Origin: Zeus faber
Lineage: Eukaryota; Chordata; Actinopteri; Zeiformes; Zeidae
Length of the DNA: 64,000 nucleotides
NCBI GenBank assembly: GCA_960531495.1
Contig: OY482853.1
Span: 23,767,322 to 23,831,321, forward strand
Direction: 5' to 3'
In this document: piece after piece, positions 2,998 through 9,942 of the stretch
Layout: each line of letters starts with the position of its first letter
How positions within the stretch are numbered: position 1 is the stretch's first letter
Notes under the pieces: model-generated
What the model saw: only the letters and a program-made list of their open reading frames with translations
What the model was told of the DNA's origin: nothing
Databases searched by the model: none
Program-made: the position numbers and the translations under genes

Positions 2998-5900
2998 GTA
3001 AGGGAGGCTCCGAATGGGGGGTGAGGGTTGGTAGGCGTTGTGGTCAGGGGACCAAGTCGGGTGGGGCGACCCTGGGAGACTAACGACAACTGTGGGCGAA
3101 GTTAGTGGGGGAGAGGAAACAGAAGTGAAGGGGGATGCAGCGGTGTCAACCCATGACTGTTTATTTATGCAAAGACTGAATCTGTTCTTACCAAACTCAA
3201 TTGCGGGAGAAACAGGAGTTTTGGTAAAGTTTCCCTCCATCATGGCGTCATCGTTGAAACGGAACGCCGGGATATTTGAGAGCCAACGGGGTAGAAAAGT
3301 CCCCAAACATCAAATAGAGCGGTTTCAATTATTACGTAATCGCCCGATCGCAATTATATGAGCTGATCGCAATCAGGTTCACAAAATCGTGAGGATATTT
3401 TTATGGAATTTTTAGAAAAAAGAATGCAAATGAGGTGCGTTTCCATCAACTGACTTAAGGAAAATCAACGGTCCATCGACGTTTTATGTTTGGATATCTA
3501 ATGCCAATAAATGTCTCTCCTTCATAGGTGGATGTGATTACTGTGATTGTGCATTAAATCAATCAAATCAAAAGGCGGTTTCATTGTTAATCGTAATTAT
3601 TTGTTTGACATGTAATCACCAACTAAAATCTCACAATCGCGACAGTCCTTCCAACATGATGACATCATGAGTTTGAGTTTGATTCGAGCCCTTTTTTGAC
3701 GTTTTGTATACCATTCGGACCCGCACTCGGGACTCGTGGAGGGCTCCGTCGAGCGCGTCAACGGGAACGAAAAGATCGTTGGGGCGGCGGCGGCTCCCGA
3801 CGTGTGCGGAGGCGGCCGAGCCCCGTTGGTTTCTCGGCTGCCTCCGCGGCGCGTTTTCAGGCCGATCGGGTTCCGCTTCATCCAGGTCGTCCGGCTTTCC
3901 GAAACCCGCCTCTAACCGCCTTAACTTCCCCGGCACTAACATTTCCAGGCTCTTCTGTGGAATTAACCTCCCGCTGCATTCTCACTAACTGCCAGATTTT
4001 GGGGGAAGAAAAACATTTAAATAAAGCGACTTGCACAGAATAAGTTTGTTTTATCTGGCTTGGAGCCCCAGCGGGGTGTCGTTCCTTACATTTGGCTACA
4101 TGGCGAGACTTATAATTTGAAGGTGAAATGTAAAGTTTATCTTTGACCGAAAAATGGCAATTTATCCGACAGTTTCTAAAATCTGCCGCGATTTGAACTC
4201 CGCCCGTCGGCTCCCAAGTCCGTTTAAAACAAGCCCAGTGTGGTTTGTGTGATTTTTAACCCAGGTCTGCTCTCGAGTTGAGCTTTTTCTCTTCCACAGT
4301 CCGTTCCGGGCTGTTTTTATCGTCGCTTTGTTTGTTGATTTGAATATTTTTGCTTTTCTTTGCCACTCACCAGACAAATCTTCTATCCCTCATTTTTCTC
4401 TGGCTCGTTTTAAACTTGTGCTTTTTTTCTCGTTTCTTTCCATCATTTTTTCCTTTTTTTCTCCTTCCATCTTTACTCTCTCTTGTCACCGTTTTTCTGC
4501 TCCTCTTCCTCCTCCTCCTCCTCCTCTCTTCTCTGGTGTTCTCCCTTTTGTTCTGCATTTTGTTTTGCATCCTCCGTTCATCTTCCTTCTCTTCTCCCTC
4601 TCTCCTCCCAGGGTCACTCTTGACCCCTCTAAACGTCCGAGCTCAAACAAGTCCGTGTCGGGCTGCACCCTGCCACAGGGAACAAAAACAGTTAGTAAGT
4701 TTTCCTTTTTGTGTTTTCTGGCTGCTGCTGCTGCTGCTGTTCTGCCTTCTCACTGTCCGTCTGTCCGTCCGTCCGTCCGCCTGCCTTTCTGTCTGTCGAC
4801 CGGTCGGCTGTTCTGTCGCTCCGCCCGCCCCGCCTGTCTGCCTGCCACCCCCTTCCTCTCCTGGTTTGCTGCCTCTGTCTGTCCATCCTGACTGCGTGAC
4901 TCTCTCTCTCGCTCTCTCGCCTTCCGAGCTCATCGAGCATTGTGCTCTAGCTCCCCCTAGAGGTCGGACGTAGAACGGCAGCGCTGCCTGGGTCGACGAA
5001 GAGAACTGTGTGATGTTGTCTTTAAAGTAGTAGAAAAAAGGGGAAGGCTGGGTGTGAGAGTTTTTTTGGTTTGTTGACACTACAGTTTTGTGGCTGTTGG
5101 GCTTCTAATGACGCTGTAGCACGCATGAGAAATGATCAGTGTTCTTCACACGGGATGGGATGGAATAGATATTTATGTAGAAATGAACACAGACACTAAT
5201 TGTATGAGTAGGCGACCTCTCAAATACTTTGAATACTTTGCGTTTCCTCGACTAGGATGTTTTTCCTTGCAGTTAAACTCTAAGCCTCTGAGTCATGTAA
5301 TCATCACCACATGTTCCCGTGGTGTGAACAGATCCACGCTCTGTCGGGATCTGGAACATGGATGGACCGGGGGGGGGGTTGCTGGAGGAAGATAATTGTT
5401 CTGTTCATATTTGGGGCAGCATTTAATGCCTTCAACAAGCTGACAGGCAACAGCCCCTCCTCCCCGCTGCAGTTCATCAACCTTTAGACACAATGGGGAG
5501 ATGTATTCTTGTAAGGAGTCCCAGTGTTGGACTCCTAGGCCGTCAGGTTGCAGTTAAGGGGTTCAATACTTTGCACAAGGCCACTTCGCCTGCTTTTCCC
5601 CGGCTTCTCTGTGTGATGTCAAGTTTATCACCAGGAATTTGACTTCGTCCGGAGTGCAACGAAACGCCAAAACATCCAACTAGAAAACACAGAAACCCAA
5701 TCCCACAGGCAAGGGGAAAAATAAGGAAACCTTGATTAGAGACTCAGACCACAGATCCCCCCTGCTGGGACGCTAGGTTTGCAGTGGGACTGGGAGATAT
5801 ATCGGTATGATACTGATATCGTGATATGAGACTAGATGTCGCCTTGGATTTTGGTTATCGTGATAAATAAATAAATGTTGTCTTCTCCTGGTATTAAAGG

Positions 5901-8900: not shown

Positions 8901-9942
8901 GAAAACCCCAAAGGGTACCGTGTAGATGTGTGTGTCCGTGCGTTGCAACTAGTTGAGAGGTTCCTCAGCCTCCGAAAAGCCCACCAGCGTCTCCCGCCAC
9001 CCGGGTCTCCTACGGCAACCGGCTCCCTCGCGGGGGTGTGTGCTGGCTTTAATCTCCCTGGGACGGGAGGCGGGTGCACTGAAATGACATGAGCAATTAC
9101 TCTGCGCACATTTAGCTTTGACTACCCCGCTGTTGGCTCAAATGAACGCCACCTTGTCTCTGCCTGGGTCCTCAGTAAACAGGTAAAACACGTTGACAGA
9201 TACCGGTTGACATTTTACAGATATCCGAGGTCTGATAAATCAAACTGGGTGGCGGCTTTTCCAATCCCGATAAGTGAAGGGTGAATAGTCGATGCTGAAA
9301 ATTGCTTCACATTCTGATGTTGGTCAACGACAATACGTGATATTGATCTATGTTCTTCTTCTCCCCCTCCCCTGACCATGTATCCACTAACACTCATACG
9401 ATCGCTCATCCACTCTCTCCACCACCCACACGCCGCCTTCCGTGCATCCATCACTTGCACCTTTTCTCGCCGACATTCATTCATTCCTCAACACTTCCTG
9501 GTTCCCCTTGACCCCGCCCTTACCCCTCCATCGCCTCACTCCACCGTCGCACCAACACTACCAAACCCCCGCCCCGCACTCCACCCCCCCCCCCCTGCCC
9601 CCCGGCAGTCGCCATCTATCTGGGCATCAGAAAGCGGCCGAGCCCCGGACCCCCCGATGCGGCTGGGATGTGAGGGTGCGGAGCCAGCGCGACCCGGCCG
9701 AGGTGGTGCTGGCGCTGCGCGAGGCGGCGCAGGGCTGCGGCTGCCAGGTCCACATGGCCGGGCCCTTCCTCCTGTCCTGCACGCACGGCGCGGCCGGCGC
9801 CCGCGTGGCCTTCGAGGCCGAGGTGTGCCAGCTGCCCAGCGGGCCGGGCCAGAGCAGCGGCGTGCGGTTCAAGCGCCTGTGGGGGGCGCCGCTGGCCTTC
9901 AGAGACATCGCCACCAAAGTGTCCAAAGAGCTGGAGCTCTGA
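2718..9942 (+). CDS. mark4: MAP/microtubule affinity-regulating kinase 4, C-terminal part (partial gene)
   Basis: This is the 3' end of a MARK/PAR-1 family Ser/Thr kinase, which phosphorylates tau/MAP2/MAP4 and loosens them from microtubules. The N-terminal kinase and UBA domains lie outside the window. Recognised exons are 2718-2997, 4612-4694 (alternative), 7675-7719 and 9609-9942. The first carries the spacer motifs RSTFHGGQLRDRR and NLFSKLTSKLTR. The last carries the KA1 membrane/autoinhibitory domain (FLLSCTHG, FEAEVCQLP, GVRFKRLWG, ending SKELEL). The motifs SRLARGS and DEPERI point to MARK4 rather than MARK1-3. Skipping 4612-4694 gives the KA1-containing long form. Including it shifts the frame and ends at TGA 9671-9673. 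The first exon carries an apparent one-base frameshift near 2931. Human MARK4 also sits next to CKM, which supports the call. Confidence 0.93.
3690..3960. other. CpG-rich block inside a mark4 intron, unexplained
   Basis: The GC content and CpG density rise sharply here relative to the AT-rich flanks. Long open frames exist on both strands, but none resembles a MARK segment or any family I recognise. It could be an intronic CpG island, a cryptic promoter or a repeat fragment. Confidence 0.35.
4612..4694 (+). CDS. mark4: mark4 alternative exon (short isoform)
   Basis: This is an 83-nt cassette exon with the acceptor ctcctcccag|GG and a perfect donor |gtaagt. Joined after the AG of the previous exon, it reads R-VTLDPSKRPSSNKSVSG followed by CTLPQGTKTV. 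This resembles the C-terminal tail I recall for the human short isoform MARK4S (VTLDPSKRxxSNxxVSG, LPQG). Its length is 2 modulo 3, so it switches frame: the following 45-nt exon and the start of the last exon are then read as SQTNLRESADLRSQ and VAIYLGIRKRP before a stop at 9671. The short form therefore lacks KA1. Confidence 0.85.
5785..5905. repeat. Dispersed repeat remnant (ATATCGTGATATGA type)
   Basis: The run of ATATCG/GATATCGTGATATGAGACTAGAT followed by a TTTTGG, AATAAATAAAT and CTGGTATTAAAGGC phrase resembles a repeat common in fish introns. The family is not assigned. Confidence 0.4.
6332..6429. repeat. (CT)n microsatellite
   Basis: A pure CT dinucleotide tract of about 98 bp inside a mark4 intron, followed by a wider pyrimidine-rich stretch to about 6550. 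Confidence 0.97.
7675..7719 (+). CDS. mark4: mark4 45-nt exon, dual-frame
   Basis: The acceptor is cttcttcttgag|G and the donor acaag|gtgagt. It both enters and leaves in phase 2 in the long form, encoding ITDEPERISRSPVT, which matches the MARK4 DEPERI segment between the spacer and KA1. After the alternative exon the same bases are read in the next frame as SQTNLRESADLRSQ, also a recognisable MARK4S peptide. The exon is thus coding in two frames. Confidence 0.88.
9609..9942 (+). CDS. mark4: mark4 terminal exon: KA1 domain and stop
   Basis: The acceptor is ccccggcag|TCGCC, preceded by a C-rich tract. In the long-form frame it gives SRHLSG, then AAEPRTPR and the roughly 95-residue KA1 fold ending KVSKELEL, with TGA at 9940-9942. 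KA1 binds acidic phospholipids and the kinase domain. In the short-form frame the first 65 bases read VAIYLGIRKRPSPGPPDAAG and stop at TGA 9671-9673. The exon is very GC-rich, unlike the flanking intron. Confidence 0.93.

Follow-up and report, generated by a model that had tools for sequence, protein, structure and literature searches.

The 3′ end of mark4a and its probable frame switch

The window analysed here is a 64,000-nucleotide (nt) stretch of the 803-Mb assembly of Zeus faber (G000:C9:23767322-23831321), and it holds the 3′ end of the coding blocks of a gene that, judged by its sequence, is teleost mark4a, a MARK/PAR-1 kinase. The end of this gene very probably carries an old splice-controlled frame switch, in which the tail read in the short-form (S) frame is a selected product in MARK4 and in MARK3, together with a frame-restoring exon of teleosts. 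The kinase/UBA region lies upstream of the window on C9 as ten in-frame blocks without stops in translation, located with a MARK consensus sequence. The best matches to the S tail and to the long-form (L) tail are mostly named MARK4, an assignment by name, and some UniRef rows among them are labelled MARK3 (P0002, P0172) or merely "protein kinase".

A preliminary description of this DNA had assigned the exons to mark4 and given both translations; borders, lengths and frames were recomputed and agree with it, with AG acceptors throughout and GT donors in all but the last exon. All features given here are on the plus strand. The shared upstream coding exon (2718-2997), recognised by its AG/GT borders and translation and homologous to mark4b and teleost MARK4, ends in TNLFSKLTSKLTR plus AG, followed by the donor gtaagg. 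The cassette exon (4612-4694), the counterpart of human exon 16, is 83 nt long (2 mod 3) and therefore shifts the frame; it encodes VTLDPSKRPSSNKSVSGCTLPQGTKTV. A 45-nt exon (7675-7719) reads ITDEPERISRSPVT in the L frame and RSQTNLRESADLRSQ in the S frame, the first R of the latter being shared with the cassette, and the 5′ part (9609-9670) of the last coding exon (9609-9942) reads SRHLSGHQKAAEPRTPRCGWDV and VAIYLGIRKRPSPGPPDAAGM, respectively. The S frame then ends at a TGA (9671-9673), within the last coding exon, that arises across the L-frame codons GTG AGG, two codons past a conserved W. The remainder (9674-9942, stop at 9940-9942) codes in the L frame only and contains the KA1 domain (Pfam PF02149, E 2.6e-13), which also matches PDB KA1 chains of MARK1 and MARK3. 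Long GA/CT microsatellite runs lie beside and between these exons, at about 1964-2124 and 6330-6430.

Skipping of the cassette gives the L ending, LTRRITDEPERISRSPVTSRHLSGHQKAAEPRTPRCGWDV continuing through KA1 to ELEL and the stop, and inclusion gives the S ending, RRVTLDPSKRPSSNKSVSGCTLPQGTKTVRSQTNLRESADLRSQVAIYLGIRKRPSPGPPDAAGM and stop, which reads exon by exon as LTRRVTLDPSKRPSSNKSVSGCTLPQGTKTV-RSQTNLRESADLRSQ-VAIYLGIRKRPSPGPPDAAGM. The switch proposed in the preliminary description is thus borne out. The two-frame stretch measures 45 + 62 = 107 nt plus the stop, above the threshold of at least 60 nt used for dual coding, and the S tail is 63 residues long and has no KA1.

Two features had escaped the preliminary exon list, the named exons of which otherwise stand. 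Exon 2718-2997 as assembled switches frame internally: its start is MARK4-like in one frame, and its end (TNLFSKLTSKLTR) lies in the next. Comparison with mark4b and three teleost MARK4 proteins places one extra base near 2947 (2940-2960), at a site where two of the three teleost proteins read ARTRATTNL. The simplest reading is that the extra base is probably an assembly error, which is preferred because the downstream sequence is conserved; it may alternatively be a real frameshift in the sequenced animal.

The second is an open 49-nt exon (8664-8712; 1 mod 3) with a cag acceptor and a gtaaag donor, which after the cassette gives the series RSQ-ASAPVQLQSHSLVKTS-SRHLSG and on into KA1. Cassette and 49-nt exon together add 132 nt, so that the 45-nt exon is read in the S frame, ASAPVQLQSHSLVKTS follows, and the L frame is regained into KA1; the 49-nt exon without the cassette leads to a stop. 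This arrangement (cassette, S-frame 45-nt exon, L-frame last exon) was recognised by pattern in 13 of the 291 fetched proteins. Their inserts vary in length and sequence, the closest to 8664-8712 being that of P0105 (ASAASAQSQSQVKTS), and the exon resembles annotated teleost isoforms such as this one. By sequence, a third ending can thus be made in teleosts through the 49-nt exon, one that contains the cassette and keeps KA1. The earlier equation of the alternative frame with a KA1-less form holds for the S ending and not in every case, and the view that an S-frame reading of 7675-7719 always means KA1 loss was dropped once this exon had been found. A mouse Mark4 microexon is mentioned in PMC7821500. 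Two proteins that are mark4b-type by sequence (P0116, P0118) are KA1-bearing cassette forms with differing short insertions, which suggest further frame-restoring splice choices in mark4b. Four MARK4-type models (P0100, P0104, P0111, P0114) run from the S-frame 45-nt exon into unrelated residues and end there, as a retained intron or an alternative last exon would make them do.

Paralogues and distribution of the short-form tail

Whole-genome searches with S tails gave matches on C9, C14 and C13, besides one on C12 at E 6.9. The C14 locus, mark4b, has an 83-nt cassette, and the C13 locus, mark3a, has an 80-nt cassette; in each, a 45-nt exon and the last exon can likewise be read in both frames. 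In the MARK loci on C16 and C22 (30 kb each) no convincing cassette counterpart was found among the matches listed. In all three genes the S stop comes two codons past the W that is conserved in the KA1 frame, and it arises in the same way: a codon whose last two bases are TG stands before an A, so that the shifted frame reads TGA. A GC donor (gcaagt) was seen in mark4b (G000:C14), after the kinase exon ending in GGGCAGAACCTTAAG.

Over 23 codons MARK3a and MARK4a share 15 residues in the S frame and 9 in the L frame, on the same bases. When the L protein was held in simulations of the kind set out below, the S value was reached in 0, 0 and 9 of 20,000 trials at retention of 0, 0.32 and 0.52. 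Because the cassette and the two-frame exons occur in all three genes and S identity exceeds this null, the S tails of MARK3 and MARK4 appear to have been inherited from before the duplication, and the switch probably predates it. We take the MARK3/MARK4 duplication to belong to the early vertebrate genome duplications and that of mark4a and mark4b to the teleost one.

A protein search with the mark4a S tail yielded 374 candidates, of which 246 had E values up to 10, and the best 120 of the 246 were examined. The S ending was recognised by pattern in 94 of these, mostly fish, so that the alternative frame is conserved in other fish, as had been proposed. The other 26 read the 45-nt exon in the S frame but end differently, although one of them, P0049, has an S ending that the pattern missed. 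Rows with the tail include sharks and rays (P0062, P0068, P0070, P0075), a lungfish (P0059), sturgeon, bowfin, salamanders, frogs, lizards, turtles, birds and mammals, primates among them; one row, P0069, represents 211 members. A second search, whose query was the S tail of a protein named MARK3a from a shark, returned 333 proteins among 350 candidates. Its best 120 matches contained 53 rows that their name or tail marks as MARK3-type, and 47 of the 53 have the S tail by pattern. These include sharks and rays (P0113, P0115, P0121, P0123), Callorhinchus, Latimeria, gar, bowfin, sturgeon and teleosts; no tetrapod MARK3 was found among the best 120 of 333. The remaining MARK3-type rows are P0161, which lacks the 45-nt exon peptide, and five with that peptide in tandem. 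In these five (P0133-P0136 and P0138, of Gambusia and Xiphophorus) the sequence is SLRETGDLRAQ-ESQP-SLRETGDLRAQ, as a duplication of the 45-nt exon would give.

Among 61 S forms of MARK3 and MARK4, hand-picked from the best-match rows, the invariant two-frame residues are S664, E670, D673-R675, Q677-A679, Y681-I684 and G697 (P0001 numbering), with DLRxQVAxYLGI as the core. By this comparison of sequences, the S tail reaches from sharks to mammals in MARK4, occurs also in MARK3, and is present across jawed vertebrates.

Selection on the two reading frames

The preliminary description had matched both frames to the two human MARK4 C-termini and judged by eye that the short frame keeps more identities. 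Counting over the 36 two-frame codons bears this out: mark4a and mark4b share 31/36 residues in S and 22/36 in L, and mark4a and human share 26/36 (ungapped) in S and 18/36 in L, the human L tail being an assumed sequence. Both exceed chance. Recoding of the L peptide with random synonymous codons left the S frame open in 24% of 20,000 trials, with S identity to the human S tail averaging 9.8/36 and at most 20, compared with 26 observed. Recoding of the S peptide in the same manner attained the 18/36 match to the assumed human L tail in 9 of 20,000 trials. DNA was also inferred from two overlapping proteins, which is feasible because two proteins in two frames fix nearly every base; the procedure returned the true mark4a and mark4b DNA up to a few ambiguous bases. 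Applied to human S (P0064, P0065, P0067) and the assumed human L, it found the two mutually compatible, with 96 DNA variants at the ambiguous places, which supports the assumed human L over the overlap.

Between mark4a and mark4b the two-frame stretch differs at 18 bases, of which 12 are silent in S only, three in L only and three in neither frame, compared with about 27%, 27% and 44% expected from mutation alone. The maximum-likelihood omega from these 18 differences only is 0.20 for S (p 0.002 against 1) and 0.99 for L (p 0.98 against 1), the two frames differing from each other at p 0.009. By S codon position the differences fall 2/3/13 (p 0.002), and the cassette, which is coding in the S form, shows 17 differences at 2/2/13. 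At the nucleotide level the two genes are 84% identical over the 45-nt exon, 83% over the initial 65 nt of the last exon and 80% over the cassette; the kinase/UBA exons stand at 85% and the KA1-only part at 75%. These comparisons of sequence indicate that the S frame of the 107 nt is under purifying selection and that it is the better conserved frame and the main object of selection there.

Whether either frame is carried along by the other was assessed by simulation, in which the protein of one frame is held and the synonymous choices drift at the rate of the mark4a/mark4b kinase exons (four-fold identity 61/124, other wobble sites 118/155). When S was held, the observed L identity was reached in 937 of 20,000 trials for mark4b-mark4a, 1,138 for Scleropages-human, 2,155 for human-mark4a, 13,019 for human-mark4b, 2 for Scleropages-mark4a and 0 for Brienomyrus-mark4a. 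From these counts, L-frame constraint on the same bases appears clear only among teleost mark4a orthologues, and weak or absent elsewhere. The proposal of some 110 nt under selection in two frames across bony vertebrates is therefore upheld, and widened to sharks, lungfish, tetrapods and MARK3, for the S frame, and narrowed to teleost mark4a for the L frame. These tests and the L omega led us to abandon the idea of selection on both frames everywhere.

The alternative with most in its favour is that only S is selected in the 107 nt, L being an unconstrained linker that needs only an open frame to KA1. An L omega of 0.99 between the paralogues agrees with this, as do the human-mark4b L identity of 14/36 (null mean 14.5) and the MARK3a-MARK4a L identity of 9/23, which was reached with S held in 784, 7,454 and 14,474 of 20,000 trials at the three retention levels. 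This explanation is nonetheless unlikely. It does not account for the Scleropages and Brienomyrus counts against mark4a, nor for the L residue being constant, at 13 of the 21 four-fold S codons of mark4a, in all 120 L tails among the matches listed (33 distinct, teleosts where named, some species with several rows); three of the 13 allow one silent alternative. Identity to mark4a at four-fold S sites is 15/17 in Scleropages, 15/17 in Brienomyrus, 18/18 in Hippocampus, 13/17 in mark4b and 6/12 in human, human showing no excess. The mark4b value exceeds the control of 61/124 at p 0.02, which becomes 0.38 when the other wobble sites are added; on that wider basis p is 0.04 for Scleropages, 0.014 for Brienomyrus, 0.0003 for Hippocampus and 0.68 for human.

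Conservation of the bases as RNA rather than as protein in two frames is a considerably less probable explanation. Small regulated exons often carry splicing enhancers, the 45-nt exon is 84% identical between mark4a and mark4b, equal to the kinase exons, and the periodicity between MARK3a and MARK4 is not significant. Against this stand the S-frame periodicity of the mark4a/mark4b differences, the 12 of 18 that are silent in S where 27-28% of mutations would be, and the higher S than L identity of MARK3a on the same bases. MARK3-MARK4 base identity, by contrast, is no argument against RNA-level conservation, because the periodicity there is not significant. That the cassette is a poison exon, lowering the MARK4 level through an early stop, is highly improbable: inclusion does shift the frame and remove KA1, but the stop falls inside the last coding exon, conservation of the tail peptide extends from sharks to mammals, and excerpts of PMC12027440 describe MARK4S as an isoform with a tissue distribution of its own.

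The S frame as a mere by-product, conserved through bases shared with a selected L protein, can be dismissed almost outright. The S stop is indeed dictated by conserved codons of the KA1 frame, but with L held the observed S identity was never reached (0 of 20,000 trials for each of six comparisons, which have sequences in common), and the mark4a/mark4b differences pile up at S third positions, also in the cassette.

Several points weigh against the proposal of an old switch with a selected S tail. The synonymous control does not come from the same species pairs as the comparisons, and the omega estimates rest on few differences and give no L-frame selection between the paralogues. Towards mammals, L constraint is weak or absent, as seen in the human and Scleropages-human counts above. 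The Scleropages L signal has p 0.03-0.05 when four-fold identity is set at 0.70 and is lost at 0.77, and the Brienomyrus signal, still at p 0.006-0.010 for 0.77, weakens to p 0.05-0.07 for 0.85 and vanishes at about that level. S periodicity is not significant for MARK3a against mark4a (6/5/11, p 0.24) or mark4b (7/6/9, p 0.73). The relatives are mostly predicted gene models, isoforms included, and the assembled exon 2718-2997 is itself frame-broken. Finally, a domain search with the S tail found no Pfam or NCBIfam family, and a structure search gave one chance PDB match at E 0.11.

The S tail was also considered as an amphipathic helix, and this found no support, as the best 18-residue moment is not above that of shuffles (mark4a 0.41, human 0.34); two shark tails gave 0.044 and 0.068 against shuffles, but in a different segment.

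Splicing control and comparison with known systems

In the mechanism proposed, skipping of the cassette would keep the L frame, and the kinase would end in KA1, with its membrane-binding and autoinhibitory functions. Inclusion would have the same 107 nt read in the S frame and KA1 replaced by the 63-residue tail, with autoinhibition presumably released or location changed. With its stop in the last coding exon, the S mRNA should escape nonsense-mediated decay. In teleosts the second exon, here of 49 nt, would restore the frame so that a cassette-containing form keeps KA1. Excerpts of the literature describe KA1 as autoinhibitory in MARK1 and PAR-1 (PMC6451319) and as a membrane module in MARKs (PMC4686854). 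For human MARK4, such excerpts report that loss of exon 16 gives a 752-residue form and the 18-exon mRNA a 688-residue form (PMC9355243), that PTBP1 causes exclusion of exon 16 (PMC10835012), that MARK4S occurs mainly in brain (PMC12027440) and that MARK4 is listed as a neural splicing target (PMC3022918). By analogy, inclusion in fish may be controlled by PTBP-type repressors, and the S form may be the neural form.

A candidate PTBP repressor region lies directly before the mark4a cassette (4462-4611), with a C/T fraction of 0.87; the values for mark4b and mark3a are 0.79 and 0.77. Upstream of constitutive exons the fraction is 0.54-0.80 for nine exons of mark4a and 0.47-0.78 for nine of mark4b, one exon in each gene being as pyrimidine-rich as the cassettes (0.80 and 0.78). 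PTB-like words number 45 and 15 before those two exons and 23, 15 and 10 before the cassettes, and are thus not more frequent there. Such pyrimidine-rich regions are in keeping with PTBP control and do not prove it.

Elsewhere in the window, a 434-amino-acid open reading frame on the minus strand (56710-58014) belongs to a cdc42ep-type gene, with BORG_CEP (PF14957, E 1.6e-20) and P21-Rho-binding matches.

If the mechanism holds, the choice between two frames decides whether a microtubule and polarity kinase carries an autoinhibitory, membrane-binding domain. A tail that sharks and bony vertebrates have kept in both MARK3 and MARK4 implies a short-form function outside the domain libraries searched, for which the residues of DLRxQVAxYLGI are functional candidates, and the fish paralogues offer a natural experiment in which the L reading is relaxed and the S reading is not. 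We know of few cases in animals of two-frame coding kept over such distances. In a broader proposal, to which we give even chances of being right or wrong, the KA1-less ending is an old C-terminal module of the MARK3/MARK4 ancestor that was kept through the vertebrate and teleost duplications with the S frame ruling in the 107 nt, and the small teleost exon uncouples the S-frame exon from KA1 loss, so that two exons give three or four endings.

The S/L switch in mammals is already known. Three points are new by this evidence: the S frame extends to sharks and to MARK3, it dominates in the bases that the two frames share, and teleosts have an exon that restores the frame. No account joining MARK4 and dual coding was found among the papers listed in searches of the open-licence literature, and a literature search with human S peptides gave no occurrence.

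Three known systems are close to the one proposed here. Dual-coding isoforms produced by non-triplet splicing, as described in excerpts of PMC13247117, likewise have a stretch of 60 nt or more with two readings, between which splicing decides, and resist decay; that work concerns C. elegans and human transcriptomes, whereas conservation is followed here from sharks to mammals and across gene duplication. Frameshifting skipping of penultimate exons into the 3′ untranslated region (PMC7392665, in excerpt, the main text of which does not mention MARK4) similarly gives an alternative C-terminus by a frame-shifting splice near the 3′ end. The alternative frame in that system runs into the untranslated region and is proline-rich, whereas the mark4a S frame ends early, inside the coding last exon. 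Closest is human MARK4S/MARK4L, which agrees with mark4a in gene, cassette position (exon 16) and frame consequence, the mammalian S tail (P0064, P0065, P0067) aligning without gaps over the 36 codons with 26 identical. The fish differ from it in having two mark4 copies and a mark3a with the switch, a frame-restoring exon, and measured values of selection for each frame.

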